NCBI GenBank assembly: GCA_017557785.1
Contig: JAFYYA010000056.1
Coordinates: forward strand, 1 to 64,000
Direction of reading: 5' to 3'
DNA length: 64,000 bases
From: Salinivirgaceae bacterium
GTDB taxonomy: Bacteria; Bacteroidota; Bacteroidia; Bacteroidales; SZUA-534
Of the stretch, positions 9,805-59,109 are shown piece by piece. Each line of letters starts with the position of its first letter. The stretch's first letter is position 1. The notes below the pieces were generated by a model. That model ran no database searches. It worked only from the letters and a program-made list of their open reading frames with translations, and was not told the origin of the DNA. Both the position numbers and the translations under genes were made by a program.

Positions 9805-10962
9805 ATGAACGCTTATAGAAATAAAATATTCTGGAAGACATTTATCCTTGTCTGTGCGACACTAATTGGCGGAATATCACTCTATTACACCAATGTATTG
9901 GCGCGAAGTATGGCCGACGAAGAGCAGAAGCGAATGCAGATTTGGGCTGAAGCCACGCGCCAGATAATCATCAGCAACAACGAGAATGAGATAACTTTCT
10001 GTCTCGAAATCATCCGCAACAACACGACGATTCCGGTCATCCTGACCGATGATGAAAACAACGTCATCTCAACAATGAATGTTCCGGATTTAATTGACAA
10101 TGATACAGCATATTACCGCGAGCGGCTTGCCGAAATGGCGGCAAACCACGACCCCATTGTCATCAATCTGCCGATGAACCACAAAAACTACATTTACTAC
10201 GACGATTCAACCGTCCTGAAGCAGTTGGCGCATTTCCCGTTCATCCAGATGTCGATAATCGCTATCTTCCTGATGGTGGCCTATTTGGCTTTCAGTTCGT
10301 CGCGTAGAGCAGAGCAGAACAAGGTTTGGATTGGAATGTCGAAGGAAACGGCTCACCAGTTGGGAACGCCCATCTCGTCGCTGATGGCGTGGATTGAAAT
10401 TCTCAAACAAGATGAATCAAATGCTTCGTATGTGGCTGAAATGCAAAAAGATGTTGACCGTCTGCAGATGATTGCCGACCGCTTCTCAAAAATCGGTTCT
10501 CTGCCGACACTTCAGCCTTGCAACCTGTCGGAAGCCATCAACACGGCGGTGGGTTATATGCGTACTCGTGTGTCGGACAATATCACGCTCGATGTGAAAG
10601 ACAACACAGAGCACGATGTTATGGTGAAACTCAATACATCACTCTTCAACTGGGTGATTGAGAATATGATAAAGAATGCCATCGATGCGATGGAAGGGAA
10701 GGGCTGCATCACCATCAAACTGAACGAGACACTGAAATTTGCCGAAATTCTTATAACCGATACCGGCAAGGGTCTTGCCAAGAATCAGTTCAAGGCCATT
10801 TTCGCGCCAGGCTACACCACAAAAGAGCGCGGTTGGGGACTCGGTTTGTCGCTTGTGCAGCGCATCGTGAAAAACTACCACCGCGGCAAAATTATGGTGC
10901 AGTCGTCGGAAATCGGTGTTGGCACCACTTTCAAAATCTTGTTGCCGAAGGTATCGAACTGA
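9805..10962 (+). CDS. Membrane sensor histidine kinase
   Basis: A two-helix membrane sensor kinase of 385 residues. Helix 1 is FILVCATLIGGISLYY near the start and helix 2 lies around residue 155 (MSIIAIFLMVAYLAF); the roughly 100 residues between form a periplasmic sensor with no motif I recognise. The H-box is KETAHQLGTPISSL (His184). The ATPase has the N-box ENMIKNAIDAM, the G1 box ITDTGKG and the G2 box RGWGLGLSL. The ATG at 9805 is preferred to the GTG at 9766 because the latter overlaps the AsmA gene and adds 13 residues unlike a signal. No response regulator is adjacent, so the partner is unknown. Confidence 0.9.
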   Translation: MNAYRNKIFWKTFILVCATLIGGISLYYTNVLARSMADEEQKRMQIWAEATRQIIISNNENEITFCLEIIRNNTTIPVILTDDENNVISTMNVPDLIDNDTAYYRERLAEMAANHDPIVINLPMNHKNYIYYDDSTVLKQLAHFPFIQMSIIAIFLMVAYLAFSSSRRAEQNKVWIGMSKETAHQLGTPISSLMAWIEILKQDESNASYVAEMQKDVDRLQMIADRFSKIGSLPTLQPCNLSEAINTAVGYMRTRVSDNITLDVKDNTEHDVMVKLNTSLFNWVIENMIKNAIDAMEGKGCITIKLNETLKFAEILITDTGKGLAKNQFKAIFAPGYTTKERGWGLGLSLVQRIVKNYHRGKIMVQSSEIGVGTTFKILLPKVSN

Positions 10963-10994
10963 AATACCAACAGATGTTTTGGTTAGAATTCCAT

Positions 10995-11031
10995 AAAAAA
11001 GCCCCGCCGTATCCGGCAGGGCTTTTCTTTT
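10995..11031. terminator. Bidirectional intrinsic terminator
   Basis: AAAAGCCCCGCCG (10997-11009) and CGGCAGGGCTTTT (11014-11026) form a strong stem flanked by A and T runs. It separates the kinase gene from the convergent EF-G2 gene. Confidence 0.88.
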
Positions 11032-11045
11032 TATGAAAGGATTTG

Positions 11046-49359: not shown

Positions 49360-51903
49360 ATGAAAAAAACATTTGCAATCCTTTTCGCCATAATGCTTGC
49401 CGGGCAGGTGTGGGCAGCATCCACAACTTTTGAAGTTGGTGGTTTGAAGTATACAGTTACTGATGAGACCAATCATTATGTTTCAGTTGGTAAAGGAACT
49501 TCTCAACCATCCGGCGCATTGCAAATATTAGAAACAGTTACGTATCCGGAAACTGATGGAGTAAAATATACCGTTACAAGCATTGCCGTTGAAGGATTCT
49601 ATTTTTGCGGTAGAATAACATCAATAACCATTCCCAATTCGGTTACAAGCATCGGCAAATCGGCATTCCATACTTGCAATGACCTGACATCAGTAACCAT
49701 TCCCAATTCGGTTACAACCATTGCCAGCTCCGCATTCTATTCTTGTAGAAACCTGAAATCAGTAACTATTCCCGAATCAGTTAAAACAATTGAATCCAGT
49801 GCGTTTGGCAATTGTGGAAATTTGACTTCAATAACCATTCCTGATGGAGTTACTACTATTGGAGATGCTGCGTTTGGTGGATGCACAAAACTGCAAAAAG
49901 TATCTATTGGAAATTCTGTTACAAGAATTGGCAAGAACGCATTTGCTCATACAGGCTTGCGCTCTATAACCCTTCCAAGTTCTATCACAAGTATGGGTGA
50001 AAATGTGTTTGATTTTAGCGTGCTGTCAGAATTAAAATATAATACCAACGCCATAAACCGCAAAGTCATTTCCGGAATACTAACACTTAATTATGTCACC
50101 ATTGGCGATAATGTTACAAGCATTGAAGATAGCTTGTTTTTTGGTAATAGTAGCCTGTTGTCTGTTAATATCGGTAGTTCGGTTGAAAGAATAGGTAAAG
50201 ATGCGTTTTTGGGTTGTAATACCATCCGTGAAATTAATGTTTCTGATGATAATACTAATTACTCATCAGAAAATGGAATAGTGTTCAATAAAGATAAGAC
50301 AACTATTATATGCTATCCAAAATATAAAGATGAAACATCCTACACCATTCCCAATTCAGTTACAAGCATTGGCGACTGTGCGTTCCGGGAATGTAACAGA
50401 CTGACATCAATAACCATTCCTAGTTCAGTTAAAAGCATTGGTGAATATGCGTTCAGCGCTTGCAGTAGATTGAAATCTGTAATCATTCCCAATTCAGTTA
50501 AAATCATTGATAATTATGTGTTTAAAAACTGTAGTGGGCTTACATTCATGGTCTATGAAGGGAAAACTGCGCCTTTAATAGGGACAAGTGTTTTTGAGGG
50601 TGTTGACAGCTCAATTAAAGTATGTGTACCTGAAGAATATGGTTCATCTTCATTTGGCGGATTAGGTATATATAAAGGACATAATAAAGTGACTGACCAG
50701 GCTGTTCCGGCCACCTGCACAGAATCGGGATTAACTGAAGGCTTGCATTGCTCTAATTGTGGTAAAGTGCTGGTTGCTCAGGAAGTAATCCCCGCATTGC
50801 AACACAACTATGGTACCCCAACTTACGACTGGAATGCGAACAATGCATCATGCACTGCCACAAAGGTTTGTGCAAATGACAGTGAACACGTTATTTCTGA
50901 GACAGTTGATGCAACATCTGCTGTAACCGTTGTGGCCACCTGCGAAGAAACCGGCACAAGAACTTTCACGGCAAATTTTACCGAGGAAGGTTTTGTAACC
51001 CAGCAGACAACAGAAGTCATTGCCGCCACAGGCCATAACTACAATGTACCAACTTACAATTGGAGCAATGGCCACTCAGCCTGCACTGCCACAAAGGTAT
51101 GCACGAATAATAACACTCACATTATTACCGAGACAGCTGTTTCGGCAGTAGTTATGACGGCAACTTGCGAAGAAGCCGGCACAAAAACTTTTACGGCGAA
51201 TTTTACCAAGGAAGGTTTTGAAACCCAGCAAGTAATAGAAAACATTGCTGCCTTAGGTCATGATTGGAGCGAATGGCAGACAACTGTTGCCTCAACCTGC
51301 TCAACTCAAGGCACACAGGTACGCACCTGCAGCCGCAATGCCGAGCACACTGAGAGTCAAAGCCTGCCGTTGGATGCCAACAATCATGAGGACGTGGTTA
51401 CCGATGATGCTGTGGCAGCCACAACAACATCGACAGGCCTTACCGAAGGCTCGCACTGCTCAGCCTGCCATACAACAATTGTCGCTCAAACCGAAATCCC
51501 TGCATTGGGTGAGCAAGGCGGTGAAAACCAAGGTGGAAATAACGAAGGCGGCAACAACCAAGGTGGTGAGAACCAAGGAGGAAATAATGAAGGAGGAAAT
51601 AACCAAGGCGGTGAAAACCAAGGTGGCAATAATGAAGGTGGTAACAACCAAGGCGGCGAGAACAACAATCCCGGCACCGCTGTTGATGATGTCATTGCGG
51701 AGACCGTCAGCATCTACACCATCGATGGAAACACCATTGTGGTTGAGAATGCTACCGAGGAAATCCGCATCTACGATGCCATGGGACGTCTGATCTGTAG
51801 GGACGCAACGCCTTGCGTCCGCGCAGAAATGAATGTTAATGTTTCCGGCATCTACATTGTCAGGGTTGGCAACGTGGCCAAACGTGTGATGGTGAACGAT
51901 TAA
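49360..51903 (+). CDS. BspA-like leucine-rich-repeat protein with T9SS sorting domain
   Basis: A secreted surface protein of 847 residues. Signal peptide MKKTFAILFAIMLAGQVWA; then about 13 LRR_5-type repeats of 23 residues (SITIPNSVTSIGKSAFHTC and variants, about 60-430); then three Cys-bearing repeats of about 60 residues (ATCEETGTRTFTANFTEEGF type); then a low-complexity linker of GGENQ/GGNNE pentads (about 720-768); last, a type IX sorting domain (EEIRIYDAMGRL...SGIYIVRVGNVAKRVMVND). BspA-like proteins bind host or fibre surfaces in other species. The sorting domain holds an in-frame palindromic repeat encoding ICRDATPCVRAEM. A terminator-like copy of that repeat follows. Confidence 0.9.
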   Translation: MKKTFAILFAIMLAGQVWAASTTFEVGGLKYTVTDETNHYVSVGKGTSQPSGALQILETVTYPETDGVKYTVTSIAVEGFYFCGRITSITIPNSVTSIGKSAFHTCNDLTSVTIPNSVTTIASSAFYSCRNLKSVTIPESVKTIESSAFGNCGNLTSITIPDGVTTIGDAAFGGCTKLQKVSIGNSVTRIGKNAFAHTGLRSITLPSSITSMGENVFDFSVLSELKYNTNAINRKVISGILTLNYVTIGDNVTSIEDSLFFGNSSLLSVNIGSSVERIGKDAFLGCNTIREINVSDDNTNYSSENGIVFNKDKTTIICYPKYKDETSYTIPNSVTSIGDCAFRECNRLTSITIPSSVKSIGEYAFSACSRLKSVIIPNSVKIIDNYVFKNCSGLTFMVYEGKTAPLIGTSVFEGVDSSIKVCVPEEYGSSSFGGLGIYKGHNKVTDQAVPATCTESGLTEGLHCSNCGKVLVAQEVIPALQHNYGTPTYDWNANNASCTATKVCANDSEHVISETVDATSAVTVVATCEETGTRTFTANFTEEGFVTQQTTEVIAATGHNYNVPTYNWSNGHSACTATKVCTNNNTHIITETAVSAVVMTATCEEAGTKTFTANFTKEGFETQQVIENIAALGHDWSEWQTTVASTCSTQGTQVRTCSRNAEHTESQSLPLDANNHEDVVTDDAVAATTTSTGLTEGSHCSACHTTIVAQTEIPALGEQGGENQGGNNEGGNNQGGENQGGNNEGGNNQGGENQGGNNEGGNNQGGENNNPGTAVDDVIAETVSIYTIDGNTIVVENATEEIRIYDAMGRLICRDATPCVRAEMNVNVSGIYIVRVGNVAKRVMVND
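51518..51663 (+). repeat. 45-bp tandem repeat coding the Gly/Asn linker
   Basis: Three 15-residue units made of GG-E/N-N-Q/E pentads, plus part of a fourth, are encoded in tandem with silent differences between copies. Such tracts change length easily by slippage. Confidence 0.8.
51797..51824. repeat. GTAGAGACG palindromic repeat, copy B, inside the T9SS domain
   Basis: GTAGGGACGCAACGCC followed by TTGCGTCCGCGC; the arms GGACGCAA (51801-51808) and TTGCGTCC (51813-51820) pair perfectly. It is in frame within the LRR gene. Confidence 0.8.
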
Positions 51904-51908
51904 TACCG

Positions 51909-51936
51909 GTAGAGACGTGCCATGGCGCGTCTCTAC
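51909..51936. repeat. GTAGAGACG palindromic repeat, copy C
   Basis: Arms GTAGAGACG and CGTCTCTAC around the core GCCATGGC, starting 6 bp after the LRR stop codon. Confidence 0.82.
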
Positions 51937-51970
51937 AAATTCGGTTATAATCGGTTAGAAACAATATTTT

Positions 51971-52001
51971 AGAGACGGTGCTCGGCGCCGTCTCTTTTTT
52001 A
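51971..52001 (+). terminator. Palindromic repeat copy D, acting as terminator
   Basis: AGAGACGG (51971-51978) and CCGTCTCT (51988-51995) pair and are followed by TTTTTT. A member of the GTAGAGACG family seems to serve as the LRR gene's intrinsic terminator. Confidence 0.75.
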
Positions 52002-52038
52002 TTTCTCATCGGTCATCGAAAAAAATCGAAAAAAAATA

Positions 52039-52068
52039 TTGCGGATTCAAAACTTTTATCGATTTTTG
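52039..52068 (+). promoter_or_regulatory. Promoter of the trp operon
   Basis: TTG (52039-52041), a 19-bp spacer and GATTTTTG (52061-52068), one base from TAnnTTTG. Transcription would start near 52075, about 13 bp before the leader peptide ATG. Confidence 0.6.
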
Positions 52069-52087
52069 GCGCGCTAAAAAAGCAAGA

Positions 52088-52150
52088 ATGAATACATTGT
52101 TCGGACATAGCTATTGGTGGTGGCGCTCTCAGATTTCAATTTGTGAGTGA
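52088..52150 (+). CDS. trpL: trp operon leader peptide
   Basis: A 20-codon frame, MNTLFGHSYWWWRSQISICE, with three consecutive Trp codons at 52115-52123. It begins just after the predicted transcription start and ends at a TGA (52148-52150) that overlaps the second arm of the attenuator hairpin. Three TGG codons in a 20-residue frame upstream of trp genes are very unlikely by chance. Ribosome stalling at these codons when charged tRNA-Trp is scarce would read tryptophan supply. The frame is too short for ordinary gene calling. Confidence 0.85.
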   Translation: MNTLFGHSYWWWRSQISICE

Positions 52151-52219
52151 TAAACCTGTTATGTTCAATCAAGTAATAACGAATTTTAGCCCGTTGCACT
52201 CACGCGACGGGCTTTTTTT
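52124..52219 (+). promoter_or_regulatory. trp attenuator (alternative hairpins and terminator)
   Basis: Segment 1 (CGCTCTCA, 52124-52131, right after the Trp codons) can pair with segment 2 (TGTGAGTG, 52142-52149). Segment 2 (GTGAGTG) can instead pair with segment 3 (CACTCAC, 52197-52203), which lies in the loop and stem edge of the terminator hairpin AGCCCGTTGC/GCGACGGGCT (52188-52197, 52204-52213) with its T run 52213-52219. The two states exclude each other, as in enterobacterial trp attenuation: stalling at Trp codons frees segment 2; a ribosome at the stop codon covers it. Confidence 0.8.
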
Positions 52220-52245
52220 ATGTCAATTTTTAATAAGAAAACAAT

Positions 52246-53433
52246 ATGAAGTACAATGTCGATGAAAACGGTTACTACGGAGAGTTCGGCGGCGCTTACG
52301 TGCCCGAGATTCTCTACCGCAACGTTAAAGATTTGAAGGCCAACTATCTGAAGATTATGGGCGAGCCCGATTTTCAGAAGGAACTAAACCAACTGCTGCA
52401 CGACTATGTGGGCCGTCCCACGCCGCTCTATCAGGCCAAGCGGCTGTCGGAGGCGGTGGGCGCCAAGGTCTATCTGAAGCGCGAGGACCTGTGCCACACG
52501 GGTGCGCACAAACTCAACAACGCTCTGGGGCAGATTCTGCTGGCGCGGCGGATGGGCAAGACGCGCATTGTGGCCGAGACGGGCGCTGGTCAGCACGGAG
52601 TGGCAACAGCCACCGTCTGCGCGCTGATGAATATGGAGTGCGTGGTTTATATGGGCGAGACCGACGTCAAGCGGCAGTTTCTCAACGTGCAGCGAATGAA
52701 GATGTTAGGTGCGAAGGTTGTTCCCGTGATGTCGGGCAACCGCACGCTGAAAGACGCCACCAACGAGGCCATTCGCGACTGGTGCTGCAATCCGCGCGAC
52801 ACCTTCTACATTATCGGCTCGGTGGTGGGCCCCGACCCATACCCCGATATGGTTGCCCGCTTCCAATCGGTTATCAGTGAGGAGATTAAGCGCCAACTGA
52901 AGGAGCAGGAAGGCCGCGAGAACCCCGATTATCTGGTTGCCTGCGTGGGCGGCGGAAGCAATGCGGCTGGAACGTTCTACCACTATCTCGACGCCGACAA
53001 CGTGAAACTCATTGCCGCCGAGGCTGCTGGTCTGGGCGTTGACACCGACAAGAGCGCCGCCACCATTCACCTGGGGCGCGTGGGTGTGCTGCACGGCAGC
53101 AAGTCGCTGGTGATGCAGACCGACGACGGCCAAATCATTGAGCCATACTCAATTTCGGCTGGTCTCGACTACCCTGGCATTGGCCCGATGCACGCCCACC
53201 TGGCACGCTGCGGACGCTCGCAGGTGCTGGCCGTCACCGACCAACAGGCAATGGACGCCGCACTGCAACTCACTCGTCTTGAGGGAATTATCCCCGCCAT
53301 TGAGAGCGCGCACGCACTGGCCGCATTGAGCCAAGTCAAATTCAAGCCTACCGATGTGGTGGTGCTCACCGTGTCGGGACGCGGCGACAAGGATATGAAC
53401 ACATTCTCGACTTATTTCGAAGGAAAAATCTAA
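52246..53433 (+). CDS. trpB: Tryptophan synthase beta chain
   Basis: Joins indole with serine to give tryptophan, using PLP. The start [22 protein letters not shown] is characteristic of TrpB1; the PLP Lys is in [13 protein letters not shown], the catalytic Glu in [10 protein letters not shown], and the phosphate loop GGGSNAAG is intact. It is the first structural gene of the operon, 26 bp after the attenuator's T run. Having trpB at the front, far from trpA at the end, is the usual order in Bacteroides relatives. Confidence 0.98.
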
Positions 53434-53452
53434 AAATCAAATATTTACAATT

Positions 53453-54847
53453 ATGTACAACTACAAAATCAACTATCGTACAATGCTGGGTGACCTTCAC
53501 ACGCCTGTGAGCACCTATATGAAACTTCGCGACCTGTACTCACAGAGCGCGCTGATGGAAAGTTCTGATTATCACGGAAGTGAGAACAACCGCTCATTCA
53601 TTGCCATTGGACCGATGGCAAGCGTGCAGGTGAGCCACGGCAAGGCCATTATGACCTTCCCCGACCAAAAGCGCTCGGAGCACGAAATCGGCGGTCAGTA
53701 TCGTGTGGATTCGGCTATAAATGAATTTCTTAGCCAATTCAAAATTGAGGGCGACTACCGCCAATACTGCGGACTCTACGGCTACACCACGTTCAACGCC
53801 GTGCGCTATTTTGAGGGCATTGCCGTGAAGGACAGCACCGCCGACCGCAACGACGCGCCCGATATGTATTACATTCTGTATAAGTACGTTATCGTGTTCA
53901 ATGACTTCCGCCACGAGATGCTGCTCATTGAACTTCTGGCCGACGGCGAAGAGAGCCAACTCGACCGCATTGAGTCGAAAATCAGCGGCGGACACATTGC
54001 CGAGTACGATTTCAGCCGCGTGGGCGACACCACAAGCACGCTCACCGACGACGAGCACAAGGCCAATATCCGCAAGGGTATCGCGCACTGCCTTCGCGGC
54101 GATGTGTTTCAGATTGTGCTTTCGCGACGCTTTGTGCAGAAGTTCAAAGGCGACGATTTCAAACTCTATCGCGCCCTGCGCAGCATTAACCCGTCGCCCT
54201 ATCTGTTCTATTTCGATTTCGGCGGATACCGCATTCTGGGCTCGTCGCCCGAGACTCACTGCCGCATAAGCGACGGCCGCGCCTACATTGACCCCATTGC
54301 GGGAACAACCCGCCGCACGGGCAATCCGAAGGAGGACGAGGAACTGGCGTCGGCGCTGCTGGCCAACCCCAAGGAGAACGCCGAGCACGTGATGCTTGTC
54401 GACCTGGCCCGCAACGACCTGAGCCGCAATTGCTCGGGCGTGAAGGTCGATTTCTACAAGGAGACGCAGTACTACAGCCACGTTATCCACCTTGTGAGCC
54501 GCGTGAGCGGAACGCTGAAACCCGCCGCCGACCCCGTCCTCACGTTTATCGACACTTTCCCCGCAGGAACGCTGAGCGGCGCGCCGAAAGTGCGTGCAAT
54601 GCAGTTAATCAGCGAGATAGAGCCGCACAACCGCGGCGCTTACGGCGGCTGCATTGGCACAATCGGTCTCGACGGCTCGCTCAATCAGGCAATCACAATC
54701 CGCACCTTTGTGAGCCGCAACAACGAACTGTGGTTCCAAGCGGGCGGCGGCATTGTGGCCCAATCGTCGGAAGAAGGCGAACTTCAGGAAGTCAACAACA
54801 AGTTGGGCGCACTGAAAAAAGCCATTGAGATGGCGGAGAAACTGTAA
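53453..54847 (+). CDS. trpE: Anthranilate synthase component I
   Basis: Makes anthranilate from chorismate with ammonia supplied by TrpG. The N-terminal tryptophan feedback site is present as LMESSDYHGSENNRS (the LLES element), so the enzyme should be inhibited by Trp. Catalytic regions are VLSRRF, RINPSPYLFYFDFGG-like RSINPSPYLFYFDF, GSSPETHCR, IAGTTRRTG, DLARNDLSR, SGAPKVRAM and GGCIGTIGLDG. At 464 residues it is the normal short bacterial form. 19 bp follow trpB. Confidence 0.97.
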   Translation: MYNYKINYRTMLGDLHTPVSTYMKLRDLYSQSALMESSDYHGSENNRSFIAIGPMASVQVSHGKAIMTFPDQKRSEHEIGGQYRVDSAINEFLSQFKIEGDYRQYCGLYGYTTFNAVRYFEGIAVKDSTADRNDAPDMYYILYKYVIVFNDFRHEMLLIELLADGEESQLDRIESKISGGHIAEYDFSRVGDTTSTLTDDEHKANIRKGIAHCLRGDVFQIVLSRRFVQKFKGDDFKLYRALRSINPSPYLFYFDFGGYRILGSSPETHCRISDGRAYIDPIAGTTRRTGNPKEDEELASALLANPKENAEHVMLVDLARNDLSRNCSGVKVDFYKETQYYSHVIHLVSRVSGTLKPAADPVLTFIDTFPAGTLSGAPKVRAMQLISEIEPHNRGAYGGCIGTIGLDGSLNQAITIRTFVSRNNELWFQAGGGIVAQSSEEGELQEVNNKLGALKKAIEMAEKL

Positions 54848-55027
54848 GTCATAAGTGATAGTTAGGAATTAGGATTTAGAAATTAGGATTGAAAAGAGAA
54901 AGTTTAGAAGTTAAGAGGTTTAGAAGTTGAGAATGGTTAGTTGTCTAAACAGCGAAGCGACTCACCTTCTAAACAGCGAAGCGACTCAACATTCAATTCA
55001 CCAGTTAACCGATTAAACATTAAAACA
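54848..55027. repeat. Word-repeat insertion between trpE and trpG
   Basis: The 180-bp spacer is wholly made of phrases: ttaggaattaggatttag (54862-54879), gtttagaagttaagaggttt (54902-54921), a 21-bp direct repeat TCTAAACAGCGAAGCGACTC+A at 54944-54964 and 54968-54988, and attcaccagttaaccgatta (54996-55015). An in-frame upstream ATG for trpG (54941) would translate the direct repeat as repeated SKQRSDS and is unlikely to be the start. Confidence 0.8.
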
Positions 55028-55591
55028 ATGAAAGTTACAATTATAGACAATTACGATTCGTTCACCTACAACCTTTGCCAGATGATTGAGGAGGCGGGTG
55101 CCGATGTTACGGTTGTGCGAAACGACCAGTTTGAAATGAGCCAACTTGCTGATGCTGACAAGATTGTGCTGTCGCCAGGACCAGGCATTCCGTCGGAGGC
55201 GGGGCTGCTCACCGAAGTTATCAGAACCTACGCCGACAAAAAGCCGATTTTGGGCGTTTGCCTTGGCCACCAGGCCATTGGCGAGGTGTTCGGCTGCCAG
55301 TTGCGCAACCTGAGCAATGTTTTCCACGGCGTTCAGTCGCCCGTCGACATTGTTGCCGACGACTATCTTTTCAGCGGCCTGCCAAAGCAACTCATTGTTG
55401 GGCGTTATCACTCGTGGGTGATTGATAACGAGGGCTTTGCGTCCGACCTTGTGATTACCGCCAAGAGCAAGGAAGGCAACATTATGGCCGTGCGCCACAA
55501 GGAGTTCGATGTGCACGGAATCCAGTTCCACCCCGAGTCGGTGCTCACACCAGGCGGGCGGAGAATTATCGAAAACTTTATAAACCATTAA
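55028..55591 (+). CDS. trpG: Anthranilate synthase component II (glutamine amidotransferase)
   Basis: Releases ammonia from glutamine for TrpE. Class I amidotransferase triad: Cys in LGVCLGHQAIGEVFG and His-x-Glu in GIQFHPESVLTPGG. The oxyanion region LSPGPGIPSEAG is present. The family start MKVTIIDNYDSFTYNLCQ fixes the ATG at 55028. 187 residues. It follows trpE after a 180-bp spacer filled by repeats, an unusually long gap inside the operon. Confidence 0.97.
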   Translation: MKVTIIDNYDSFTYNLCQMIEEAGADVTVVRNDQFEMSQLADADKIVLSPGPGIPSEAGLLTEVIRTYADKKPILGVCLGHQAIGEVFGCQLRNLSNVFHGVQSPVDIVADDYLFSGLPKQLIVGRYHSWVIDNEGFASDLVITAKSKEGNIMAVRHKEFDVHGIQFHPESVLTPGGRRIIENFINH

Positions 55592-55604
55592 AAATCAACC
55601 GAAA

Positions 55605-56600
55605 ATGAAAGCGATATTAGAGAAATTGTTCAATCACGAGGTACTGACCCGTGGCGAGGCTAAAGAGTTGTTAATCAACATATCACAAGAAAAATACAAA
55701 GACAGCCAGATTGCCGCTCTGCTCACCGTTTACCGAATGCGCGACATTACCGTCGACGAGATTGTGGGCTACCGCGAGGCACTGATGCAGAGCCAGAACC
55801 CGTTGGATTTCAGCGCGTTCAAGCCTATCGACATTGTGGGAACGGGCGGCGACGGCAAAAACACGTTCAACATTTCAACCTGCTCGTGCTTTGTGGTTGC
55901 GGGCGCGGGCTACAAGGTGGCCAAACACGGCAACTATGGCGCAACGTCGGTCTGCGGAGCCAGCAATGTGATTGAACTTCACGGAGTTAAGTTCACTTCC
56001 GACCACTCGCAACTCACGCGCTCAATTGAGGAGTGCGGAATGGCCTATATGCACGCGCCCTTCTTCACACCTGCAATGATGGCCGTTGGCCCCGTGCGTA
56101 AAAGTCTGCAATTCAAGACGATATTCAACCTTTTGGGACCGCTCGTCAATCCGTGCCGCCCGCAAAATCAACTTCTCGGTACCGCCGACCTGACTCAAAT
56201 GCGTCTCTATACCAATGTATATCAGACACTTGACATTAACTACGGCGTGGTGAACAGCCTTGACGGCTACGATGAGATTTCGCTCACAGGCGATTTCAAG
56301 GTGGCCACCAACTCAACCGAAAAAATCTATACACCAGAGAGTTACAACTTCAAGCGTGTGCAGATGAACGAAATTTTCGGCGGTCAGACGGCCGAGGAGG
56401 CAAAAGCAATTTTCGACAACGTGCTGATGGACAAAGCCACAGAGGCACAGAAGAATGTGGTGATTGCCAACGCAGGATTCGCCATTCACATTATCAATCA
56501 GCAGAAGAGCGTTGAGGATTGTATGGCCGAGGCCCGCGAGTCGATTGAGAGCGGCCGCGCACTTGCTACGCTGAAGAAATTCGTCGAGTTAAATTCTTGA
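55605..56600 (+). CDS. trpD: Anthranilate phosphoribosyltransferase
   Basis: Transfers phosphoribose from PRPP to anthranilate. The signature region is complete: DIVGTGGDGKNTFNIST (PRPP glycine loop), KHGNYGATSVCGASNVIE (anthranilate site; most orthologs have KHGNRAVSS...GSADVLE) and FNLLGPLVNPCRP. 331 residues, standard length. It starts 13 bp after trpG. Confidence 0.96.
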   Translation: MKAILEKLFNHEVLTRGEAKELLINISQEKYKDSQIAALLTVYRMRDITVDEIVGYREALMQSQNPLDFSAFKPIDIVGTGGDGKNTFNISTCSCFVVAGAGYKVAKHGNYGATSVCGASNVIELHGVKFTSDHSQLTRSIEECGMAYMHAPFFTPAMMAVGPVRKSLQFKTIFNLLGPLVNPCRPQNQLLGTADLTQMRLYTNVYQTLDINYGVVNSLDGYDEISLTGDFKVATNSTEKIYTPESYNFKRVQMNEIFGGQTAEEAKAIFDNVLMDKATEAQKNVVIANAGFAIHIINQQKSVEDCMAEARESIESGRALATLKKFVELNS

Positions 56601-56616
56601 AATTAAATTCATTATC

Positions 56617-56683
56617 TCTAACCAAACGAACCCAAATAAAACCAAAAAATGAATTGGGGTTAGTTTGGATAAGTTTGGTTAGA
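56617..56683. repeat. Inverted repeat between trpD and trpC
   Basis: TCTAACCAAAC (56617-56627) and GTTTGGTTAGA (56673-56683) are perfect 11-bp arms. Between them lie further partly complementary words (gaacccaaataaaacc, ggggttagtttgg). No T run follows, so it is not an intrinsic terminator. Confidence 0.75.
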
Positions 56684-56694
56684 AATAAATTATA

Positions 56695-57498
56695 ATGGTG
56701 AAAATGAATATTCTCGATACAATCGTCGCCAATAAGCGCATTGAAGTTGAAGGTCTGAAACAGACGGTGGCAACCAGTGTTTGGGAGTCGGCCGAAGGGT
56801 TCGCACGCAAGTGCACTTCGTTGAAAAACAGCCTTTTGCAATCGCCCACGGGCATTATTGCGGAGTTCAAGCGCCGCTCACCGTCGAAGGGCGACATTAA
56901 CGCCACGGCGGTGCCCGATGTGGTTGTGCCAGGCTACGCAAAGGCGGGAGCCAGCGGCGTGTCGATTTTGCAAGACGCGAAGTTCTTTGGCGGCGGCTCG
57001 CAGGATATGATTGCCGCCCGTCCGCTCACCAATATTCCGCTGTTATACAAGGAGTTCGTGATTGACGAGTACCAACTTTTGATGGCCAAAGGCTGCGGCG
57101 CCGACGCGGTGCTGCTCATTGCCGCCGTTCTGCCGCCCGACGCGTGTCGCCGCCTTGCGCGCGAGGCTCACCGCTTGGGCCTTGAGACACTGCTCGAACT
57201 GCACTCGCCCGACGAGACCGACCGTATTGGTGCCGACATTGATATGGTGGGAATCAACAACCGCAACCTGAAAACCTTCGAGGTTGATATTGAGGCTTCT
57301 ATCAGGCTCTGCCACAGCATTCCCGACGAGTTTGTGAAGGTGTCGGAGAGCGGACTTTCGCGCCCCGAAACCGTTGTGGCGCTGCGCCGCGAGGGTTTCC
57401 GCGGATTCCTGATGGGCGAGAATTTTATGAAGACCGCCAATCCGCCACAGGCACTCGAGAATTTCATCCGTGAGGTGAAGAATTTTGAACATATTTAG
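56695..57498 (+). CDS. trpC: Indole-3-glycerol-phosphate synthase
   Basis: Closes the indole ring from CdRP. TIM-barrel motifs are IIAEFKRRSPSKGDI (catalytic Glu and Lys), FVIDEYQLLMAKGCGADAVLLIAAVL, ETLLELHSPDE, GINNRNLKTFEVD and VSESGLSRPE. 267 residues, monofunctional and separate from trpF. The start may be Met1 or the Met at 56704. A long inverted repeat lies in the 94-bp gap before it. Confidence 0.96.
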   Translation: MVKMNILDTIVANKRIEVEGLKQTVATSVWESAEGFARKCTSLKNSLLQSPTGIIAEFKRRSPSKGDINATAVPDVVVPGYAKAGASGVSILQDAKFFGGGSQDMIAARPLTNIPLLYKEFVIDEYQLLMAKGCGADAVLLIAAVLPPDACRRLAREAHRLGLETLLELHSPDETDRIGADIDMVGINNRNLKTFEVDIEASIRLCHSIPDEFVKVSESGLSRPETVVALRREGFRGFLMGENFMKTANPPQALENFIREVKNFEHI

Positions 57499-57524
57499 AT
57501 TTATTTAATCCGCTGATAAGCAAT

Positions 57525-58166
57525 ATGTTGATAAAAGTCTGTGGAATGCGCGATTCGGCGAATATCGATTCAGTTCGCCGCCTGAACCCCGATATGATTG
57601 GGCTGATTTTCTACGCCCGCTCGCCGAGGTTTGTGGGCACTGAGCCGCTGCCGCACCTGACCGCCAGTTTCGCACCTGCGCTCAAAGTGGGAGTATTTGT
57701 AAATGAGACGGTTGCGGCCGTTGCCGACATTGCCGCGCGGTTCAATATGAACGCTGCGCAACTGCACGGAAGCGAGAGCCCTGCGGAGTGCGCCGCCTTG
57801 CGTCAGACAGGGCTGAAGGTTATCAAGGCGTTTGGCATTTCGTCGGCTGCCGATTTTGCGCAATGCGCTTCATATTCAGGCTGTTGCGACCTGTTTTTGT
57901 TCGACACGCGCACGGCGGGCTATGGTGGCGCGGGCGTCAAGTTCGATTGGAGCATTTTGGCTGAATACAAGCAAGATACGCCATTTCTGCTGAGCGGCGG
58001 AATCTCTGCCGACGATGCCGCCAACATTCGCTCAATCAGCCACCCGCAGTTGGCAGGAATCGACCTGAACAGCCGCTTCGAAACCGCACCAGCACTGAAA
58101 GACATTGAAAAACTTAAACAATTTATTAAGCAAATAAGAACAAATGGACAACAGAGTAATGTATAA
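57525..58166 (+). CDS. trpF: Phosphoribosylanthranilate isomerase
   Basis: Isomerises phosphoribosylanthranilate to CdRP. It has the catalytic Cys in IKVCGMRD (Cys6 region), the block MIGLIFYARSPRFVG, VGVFVN, QLHGSESP, the catalytic Asp in LFLFDTRTAGYGGAGVKFDWS, and LSGGISADDAANI. 213 residues, usual length. 26 bp after trpC. Confidence 0.95.
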   Translation: MLIKVCGMRDSANIDSVRRLNPDMIGLIFYARSPRFVGTEPLPHLTASFAPALKVGVFVNETVAAVADIAARFNMNAAQLHGSESPAECAALRQTGLKVIKAFGISSAADFAQCASYSGCCDLFLFDTRTAGYGGAGVKFDWSILAEYKQDTPFLLSGGISADDAANIRSISHPQLAGIDLNSRFETAPALKDIEKLKQFIKQIRTNGQQSNV

Positions 58167-58335
58167 AGAGTAAAGAGTAATGTGTAAAGAGTAAAGACAC
58201 CACAAAAACACCTTACTCATTAAACTTTACACAAAACTAGACAACAGACAAAACTGCGGCTCAAATTCGTCCGTAGTCTGATGTCCGAAGTCAAAAAACT
58301 TAACATTCAACACTAAACATTTAACATTTAATAAT
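58167..58335. repeat. Word-repeat insertion between trpF and trpA
   Basis: About 170 bp of phrases: gtataaagagtaaagagtaa and tgtgtaaagagtaaag (58161-58196), gacaacagacaaaactg (58239-58255), gtccgtagtctgatgtccga (58270-58289) and aacattcaacactaaacatt with taacatttaat (58302-58332). The third phrase matches the atpD-atpC spacer. Confidence 0.78.
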
Positions 58336-59109
58336 ATGGACAGAATAGCAAAATTATTTTCGGAGAAGAAAAACAACATTTTATCGGTTTACTTCACCGC
58401 AGGCTTCCCGACGAAGGACAGCACCGTTAAGGTCATTAAAAGCCTGACTGCGGCGGGTGTCGATATGATTGAGATTGGCGTGCCGTTCTCTGACCCGATG
58501 GCTGACGGCCCTGTAATTCAGCACAGCAGCCAGCGTGCTCTTGACAACGGAATGACGCAGGCATTGCTTTTCGAACAATTGAAAGACATCCGCAAAGTGA
58601 CTGATATTCCGCTGATTATGATGGGTTACCTAAACACCGCAATGCAGTTCGGGTTCGAAAACTACTGCCGCAAGGCCGCCGAGGTTGGCGTCGACGGATT
58701 CATTATCCCCGACATTCCGCTTGAGGAGTACGAGTCGCACTACAAGCCGATTGCCGAGCGCTACGGCCTGAAATTCGTGCTGCTCGTAACCCCCGAAACC
58801 GACGAGGAGCGTGTCCGCCGTATCGACGACATTAGCACAGGCTTCGTCTATTTGGTTTCGTCGGCTTCGACAACAGGCGCGCAGAAGAGTTTCAACGACG
58901 AGAAACAGGCCTACTTCAAACGAATTGCCGCTATGGGCCTGAAAAACCACACTTTGGTGGGCTTCGGTGTATCCAACAAAGCCACCTTCGATGCGGCCTG
59001 CCAATACTCGAGCGGCGCCATTGTGGGTAGCGCCTTCGTCAAGGCACTCGAGGCCGAGCCAACAGTGGATAAGGCAGTTGCACGGTTGGTGGAGGATTTG
59101 AAGAGTTGA
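58336..59109 (+). CDS. trpA: Tryptophan synthase alpha chain
   Basis: Cleaves indole-3-glycerol phosphate and channels indole to TrpB. Catalytic residues lie in MIEIGVPFSDPMADGPVIQ (Glu and Asp) and YLVSSASTTGAQ; the phosphate site is GFGVSNKATF and GAIVGSAFVKAL. 257 residues. It is the last gene of the operon, 169 bp after trpF; no clear intrinsic terminator follows. Confidence 0.97.
   Translation: MDRIAKLFSEKKNNILSVYFTAGFPTKDSTVKVIKSLTAAGVDMIEIGVPFSDPMADGPVIQHSSQRALDNGMTQALLFEQLKDIRKVTDIPLIMMGYLNTAMQFGFENYCRKAAEVGVDGFIIPDIPLEEYESHYKPIAERYGLKFVLLVTPETDEERVRRIDDISTGFVYLVSSASTTGAQKSFNDEKQAYFKRIAAMGLKNHTLVGFGVSNKATFDAACQYSSGAIVGSAFVKALEAEPTVDKAVARLVEDLKS

Follow-up and report, generated by a model that had tools for sequence, protein, structure and literature searches.

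The RF01692 family, "Bacteroid-trp" (Bacteroidete tryptophan peptide leader RNA), was reported by Weinberg et al. in 2010 and appears in Table 1 of PMC2864571, and a passage of PMC6414381 likens the RF01692 leader to that of E. coli and places it in F. psychrophilum. The element studied here lies at 52088-52219 of the window, by which we mean the whole 64,000-nucleotide stretch that was analyzed. The original prediction had presented such attenuators as best known from Proteobacteria and Actinobacteria and this one as deserving description; newness for the phylum is not supported, since RF01692 has described the element in Bacteroides and kin since 2010, and its cutoff was passed at the same place by 7 of 20 relatives tried (20 loci from a first set of 80). 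The window aligns with every one of the RF01692-accepted loci L035, L055, L054, L058, L024, L018, and L040 in A1, an alignment of 44 of our 65 distinct leaders. The window itself scored 20.5 bits against RF01692, under the gathering cutoff of 49, and 24.4 bits against RF00513 (Trp_leader), under the gathering cutoff of 41. Judged by its sequence, the window copy is a divergent member of the RF01692 lineage that the Rfam model misses. Other Rfam near-matches on the window (trpB RF04312 at 26.4 of 59 bits, RsaF, anti-hemB, and others) were below their cutoffs and look terminator-driven.

From sequence and folding models, we consider it very probable that the element controls trpBEGDCFA by sensing charged tRNA-Trp, as a transcription attenuator of the ribosome-mediated kind, and that it belongs to the RF01692 lineage with an antiterminator register shifted relative to that of E. 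coli. In silico, it has the features of the attenuator class, namely, an ORF with a run of Trp codons, a terminator before the first gene, and an antiterminator pairing mutually exclusive with that terminator.

Leader, promoter, and operon

The features of the locus, with the basis of each assignment, are as follows.

52039-52068 (+): putative Bacteroidota-type promoter, with a −33-like TTG (52039-52041), 19 nt, and a −7-like GATTTTTG (52061-52068; xAnnTTTG)
52088-52150 (+): leader peptide ORF MNTLFGHSYWWWRSQISICE, ATG at 52088, 20 codons, stop TGA at 52148-52150 (sequence)
52103-52111 (+): 5′ strand of an outer helix enclosing the Trp codons, partner 52158-52166 (MFE folding)
52115-52123 (+): three regulatory Trp codons, codons 10-12 (sequence)
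52124-52134 (+): segment 1, the codons after WWW (MFE folding; the 1:2 helix covaries)
52142-52149 (+): segment 2, the candidate antiterminator strand UGUGAGUG, with segment 1 or the terminator loop as partner (duplex with 52197-52204; covariation in 44 leaders)
52188-52213 (+): intrinsic terminator hairpin, 10 pairs, with the 6-nt loop ACUCAC at 52198-52203 (folding, terminator scan)
52213-52219 (+): terminator U run (sequence, terminator scan)
52246-53433 (+): trpB, first structural gene (TIGR00263, 586.6 bits, above cutoff)
53453-54847 (+): trpE ORF (best NCBIfam family name, under cutoff)
ORF ending at 55591 (+): trpG (NCBIfam curated cutoff passed)
55605-56600 (+): trpD (NCBIfam curated cutoff passed)
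about 56700-57498 (+): trpC (best NCBIfam family name, under cutoff)
57525-58166 (+): trpF (best NCBIfam family name, under cutoff)
58336-59109 (+): trpA (NCBIfam curated cutoff passed)

Most of the predicted anatomy was borne out. The 20-codon leader with its three consecutive Trp codons and the 10-bp terminator stem followed by a T run are present as listed, and the segment 1:2 pairing folds as a helix (52124-52128/52145-52149 plus 52130-52134/52139-52143 by MFE folding) that covaries in relatives. The stop codon overlaps segment 2, which covers the final two sense codons and the TG of TGA. The predicted 2:3 pairing survives as an alternative pairing with another target: UGUGAGUG (52142-52149) pairs with CACUCACG (52197-52204), that is, with the terminator loop and not with the 5′ arm. 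Relative to chance, the fold was unusual for the terminator alone (z −6.8) and for the whole leader (z −3.8), and was not unusual for the 71-nt 1:2 part alone (z −0.4). Twenty-six nucleotides separate the U run from the start of trpB. Bacteroidota make little use of Shine-Dalgarno initiation.

The predicted promoter ahead of the leader also stands, as one of probable Bacteroidota type: no sigma-70 site showed up ahead of the leader when 51900-52300 was scanned, and 52039-52068 loosely matches TTG/TAnnTTTG, which we take to be the Bacteroidota promoter consensus. The motif TTG-N18-22-TAnnTTTG precedes the leader in 40 of 66 distinct upstream regions, with 0.2 expected from mononucleotide shuffles; the window lies outside these 40, the T of the TA being missing there and likewise in the congeners printed alongside it. 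Comparison of window positions 52020-52087 with L002, L003, L004, L089, and L098 revealed two kinds of promoter region among congeners; their distribution does not track that of the leader alleles, a hint that recombination has taken place immediately 5′ of the leader.

Downstream of trpB, the trpE-to-trpA block occupies 53453-59109 (+). The predicted position of the leader ahead of trpBEGDCFA agrees with NCBIfam, which supports the order trpB-E-G-D-C-F-A with TrpB, TrpG, TrpD, and TrpA above cutoffs and TrpE, TrpC, and TrpF as best names below them. Upstream of the operon, an 847-aa ORF (49360-51903) contains low-complexity GG(E/N)NQGGNNE-like repeats at 51500-51670.

Conservation and further sites

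Ninety-seven loci with a TrpB start were collected, comprising the 80 first-set relatives, three window copies (WIN, L001, and L087), nine congener loci, and five RF01692-derived loci (L082-L086), the last of which were brought in by RF01692 itself and are not a fair sample. A Trp leader and a terminator were found before trpB in 58 of the 80 first-set loci and in 72 of the 97 overall, 65 of these 72 being distinct. Reading of the upstream regions accounted for the 25 loci without the element as follows: trpB lies inside the operon in 19, two are at contig edges (L030 and L057), two were missed by the filter (L007, with a leader and hairpin and a weak T run, and L061, with a WW leader and a non-ATG start), and two (L046 and L052) have no attenuator despite trpB being first. 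The element is thus present in 60 of the 62 first-set loci that have trpB first and the upstream region in hand. The alignment of related trpB upstream regions that the original prediction had proposed as a check turned out in its favor, with the TGG run and covarying stems both kept. The TGG columns of A1 are invariant or nearly so, save in a clade with two Trp codons. The 1:2 helix and terminator are paired in 93.0% of 831 cells of A1, with both-side changes in 14 of 19 pairs, and none of 500 shuffles equaled A1 on any of five measures; 9 of the 10 terminator pairs have changed on both sides in relatives.

Two covariance models, whose E-values are rough, were built from these leaders. The hold-out model R2, made from 39 leaders with the window and its four closest leaders (L002, L003, L004, and L089) left out, recovered the window leader with 71 bits (E 7.3e-16), ahead of three other matches in 64 kb; the next (10888-11032, 19.7 bits) reads as a gene end plus a terminator hairpin and was rejected. 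R1, built from all 44 leaders, matched 175 of 295 order genomes at E 0.001, where RF01692 gave 26 at the same threshold and 15 over its cutoff (both under stricter filters that lose weak matches), as well as 123 of 395 phylum genomes and 19 of 20 family genomes; these R1 tallies contain weak matches, some perhaps plain terminators, and the filtering of the order and phylum searches lost others. Weak R1 matches (28-35 bits) were accepted as attenuators only where a Trp leader could be seen, and L207 had no acceptable leader. In Flavobacteriaceae, small WW-like ORFs before trpB ("LFKWWHWVR") were also set aside, because trpB is internal in these operons and the region holds the end of trpF, of which the ORFs appear to be an out-of-frame reading.

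The element also occurs before other genes. Among the best-scoring R1 matches in the phylum, 25 genomes of the same class and other orders (L149-L173) carry it before trpE, and congeners with a rearranged trp operon (L179, L181, and L183) carry it before trpD. In these three congeners, the rearranged operon holds trpB internally (L179, L181, and L183 with L094-L096). A second Trp attenuator is found in the window's own genome at L192:3483-3613 (−), equivalent to G000:C89:61982-62112, with a leader MVNNLNSKQWWWRQSEI and a terminator; 40 nt past that terminator begins a gene for a TrpB-like PLP enzyme, TrpB2 (TIGR01415, NF009057). The TrpB2 attenuator is shared by congeners L205 and L206, and L201, L203, and L204 have other Trp leaders before TrpB2. 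Furthermore, at least six relatives carry two Trp attenuators in series, before trpE in L193-L197 and before trpB in L198; in each series, both copies possess a leader and a terminator of their own and both match R1. The window has a single attenuator before trpB. His-codon runs in the window's own genome were tried as his attenuators and discarded, since 58 matches against 10 in a reversed control are too many. That genome abounds in runs of four His codons, several of them clustered at C146:18271-18411.

Antiterminator register and switching

To describe the register, we give each leader:terminator duplex as the number of paired bases on the 5′ arm/loop/3′ arm of the terminator. The same kind of search placed the strongest duplex on the 5′ arm in all six E. 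coli attenuators (trp 5/0/0, thr 9/1/0, leu 6/0/0, his 5/3/0, phe 7/1/0, and ilv 8/0/0); the window does not follow this E. coli-type rule, its best duplex being 1/6/1. The claimed part-by-part match to the enterobacterial system therefore holds for the switching logic, leader, 1:2 hairpin, and terminator, and fails for the antiterminator register. By sequence, the RNA pairing of the on-state appears to be built differently from that of the textbook E. coli attenuator.

The relatives show the same tendency. More bases pair on the 3′ arm than on the 5′ arm in 56 of the 65 distinct leaders, with 5 the reverse and 4 equal (the window and three congeners); in 52 of 58 further distinct leaders, with 6 the reverse (from 74 loci, L186 having been dropped for want of a terminator); and in 16 of 18 TrpB2 or tandem sites, with 2 the reverse (two of the 18 recur among the 58 leaders, and L205 and L206 are alike), the tallied best duplexes including some that sit off segment 2 or are A/U runs (e.g., L021, L028, L127, L185, and L189). 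A stricter count, requiring at least two loop and at least two 3′-arm bases in the best duplex, retained 50 of the 65 and 47 of the 58. In the tandem of L196, the first attenuator has a 5′-arm antiterminator and the second a loop/3′-arm one.

In A1, the pairing of segment 2 with the loop and 3′ arm is formed in 91.6% of 347 cells, against 17.0-44.3% for slid versions and a mean of 88.0% after shuffling, so that much of this figure is plain conservation. Both-side changes affect 5 of the 8 pairs, a count attained by 7 of 500 shuffles, and total 14 cells versus 3.3 in shuffles, none of which attained that total; the covariation score was reached by none of the 500, the number of further pair types by 96. 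One loop pair (columns 71:153) is G-C in 35 of the 44 leaders and A-U in 8, with one gap and no broken pair. Along the leader, pairing is strongest at Trp+24 to +27. Across the 65 leaders, pairing of each leader with its own terminator exceeded all 5,000 permutations when the 3′ arm was included (16.95; permutation mean 14.2, maximum 15.49) and for the loop only (8.07; maximum 7.99), while 34 of 5,000 permutations attained the own 5′-arm value. Because related leaders are not independent, these shuffle and permutation controls are not probabilities.

The most serious alternative is the classical E. coli geometry, in which segment 2 acts through the 5′ arm and its complementarity to the loop is incidental. 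E. coli trp shares the logic and anatomy, and R1 gives its leader a score of 28.6 bits; a few leaders in each set (5 of 65, 6 of 58, and 2 of 18) do favor the 5′ arm; and weaker 3′-arm duplexes exist in E. coli leu, his, phe, and ilv (in leu, 16.5 against 18 for a 5′-arm duplex that uses almost the same strand), which makes the distinction there one of degree. However, the 5′ arm takes just one of the window's eight paired bases, most of the distinct leaders fall on the other side even under the strict count, 16 of the 18 TrpB2 or tandem sites favor the 3′ arm, and the loop itself covaries with segment 2, all of which makes the classical geometry unlikely.

Segment 2 and the loop might instead form a kissing or pseudoknot contact that stabilizes or pauses the finished terminator and does not prevent it. 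On paper, loop pairing is compatible with a partly closed hairpin, and the loop is highly conserved. The 6-nt loop is, however, fully paired with no linker, so that by H-type pseudoknot geometry a 10-bp stem and a 6- to 8-bp loop duplex should be unable to coexist, and the duplex includes 3′-arm bases in most relatives examined; we regard this contact as very unlikely. A constitutive terminator beside a chance small ORF with a TGG run, trp being controlled elsewhere by a repressor, a T-box, or TRAP, deserves next to no credence: intergenic terminators are common, but the hold-out model finds the window, the WWW, stop position, and pairings are kept across the order and recur before trpE in other orders of the class, and searches for TrpR (PF01371), T-box (RF00230), and TRAP (PF02081) gave no match in 11 genus genomes and did give matches in control genomes.

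The attenuator with a loop-capturing antiterminator would work as follows. When tryptophan is plentiful, the ribosome would pass WWW, reach the stop, and mask segment 2, so that the terminator folds and a short RNA results; were the ribosome released, the 1:2 helix would stay paired, again giving the short RNA. When tryptophan is scarce, the ribosome would stall at 52115-52123 and mask segment 1. The freed segment 2 could then grab the loop once it is transcribed and before the 3′ arm is complete, and the captured hairpin would stay open while the polymerase crosses the U run. Stalling, timing, and termination in vivo are steps that we infer.

Equilibrium folding of growing transcripts, a method that cannot represent pseudoknots, gave results compatible with this scheme. 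With the window RNA free from Trp+20 (ribosome stalled), 6.9 of the 8 antiterminator pairs formed when only the loop had been made and persisted until 6 nt of the 3′ arm were present; with the ribosome at the stop or absent, no antiterminator pair formed and the terminator folded. In L002, L058, L024, and L077, the loop alone yielded 0.2-4.4 pairs, most of the duplex forming only once 2-6 nt of the 3′ arm had been added. The 8-pair window antiterminator is worth −10.5 kcal/mol versus −18.4 kcal/mol for the terminator, and segment 2 is additionally held by its pairing with segment 1. Once the whole hairpin has been transcribed, the terminator prevails in every state of the window and the four relatives folded, even with segment 2 free, and the on-state must therefore be kinetic. 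The on-state of the E. coli attenuator is kinetic too.

Taken together, these results make it likely that a loop-and-3′-arm antiterminator is used across the Bacteroidota. Segment 2 would nearly duplicate a portion of the terminator 5′ arm, capturing first the loop and then the emerging 3′ arm, with no E. coli-like sequestration of the 5′ arm. This register would survive sequence turnover and serve, before trpB, trpE, trpD, and TrpB2, as one Trp regulon, sometimes in tandem.

Comparison with known systems

Textbook attenuation logic thus appears to serve much of the Bacteroidota, including a genus in which no TrpR, T-box, or TRAP was found, and attenuation can apparently be wired with another antiterminator register, acting before the second arm of the terminator is complete. 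The register offers a clean and testable difference in cotranscriptional folding. Moreover, a model broader than RF01692 should annotate many trp leaders that are now missed and points to TrpB2 as a second regulated gene. Among the matches listed in our literature search, no title or abstract opening concerned a loop/3′-arm antiterminator in a leader-peptide attenuator, and within those titles and openings the register, the second TrpB2 site in the genus, and the tandem Trp arrays look new. Work by Vitreschak from 2004 reportedly mentions Bacteroidetes.

RF01692 shares with the window element the place before trpB, the Trp leader, the 1:2 hairpin, and a comparable outer helix; its model goes no further than the beginning of the terminator 5′ arm and so includes no terminator and no pairing of segment 2 with the loop. 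RF00513 and E. coli trpL have in common with it a Trp-codon leader, a 1:2 hairpin, a U-run terminator, and the switching logic, whereas E. coli trpL has two Trp codons and a 5/0/0 duplex and the window has three Trp codons, a 1/6/1 duplex, and an operon headed by trpB. The E. coli trp leader (L117:566-686, −) scored 28.6 bits with the Bacteroidota model R1, so the two share features of both sequence and structure, by ancestry or by convergence.

The actinobacterial trp attenuators treated in PMC1262725 resemble the present ones in their double or triple UGG leaders and in having terminator and antiterminator hairpins, and differ in the conserved gGCC-rGCy-GGCC triple described there; the same text places C. 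diphtheriae attenuators before trpB1EDGC and trpB2A, a parallel to the two sites found here. The C. glutamicum ilvBNC attenuator, as PMC11857589 presents it, likewise has overlapping terminator and antiterminator hairpins, said to allow fast switching without full melting, but its shared bases are 77 and 79, versus the terminator-only bases 110-112, which we read as a 5′-arm register. Tandem arrangement has a counterpart in Salmonella mgtCBR, for which PMC3641672 reports two leader ORFs within one leader RNA; there, the two respond to separate signals, ATP and proline, whereas the tandem relatives described here carry Trp codons in both leaders.
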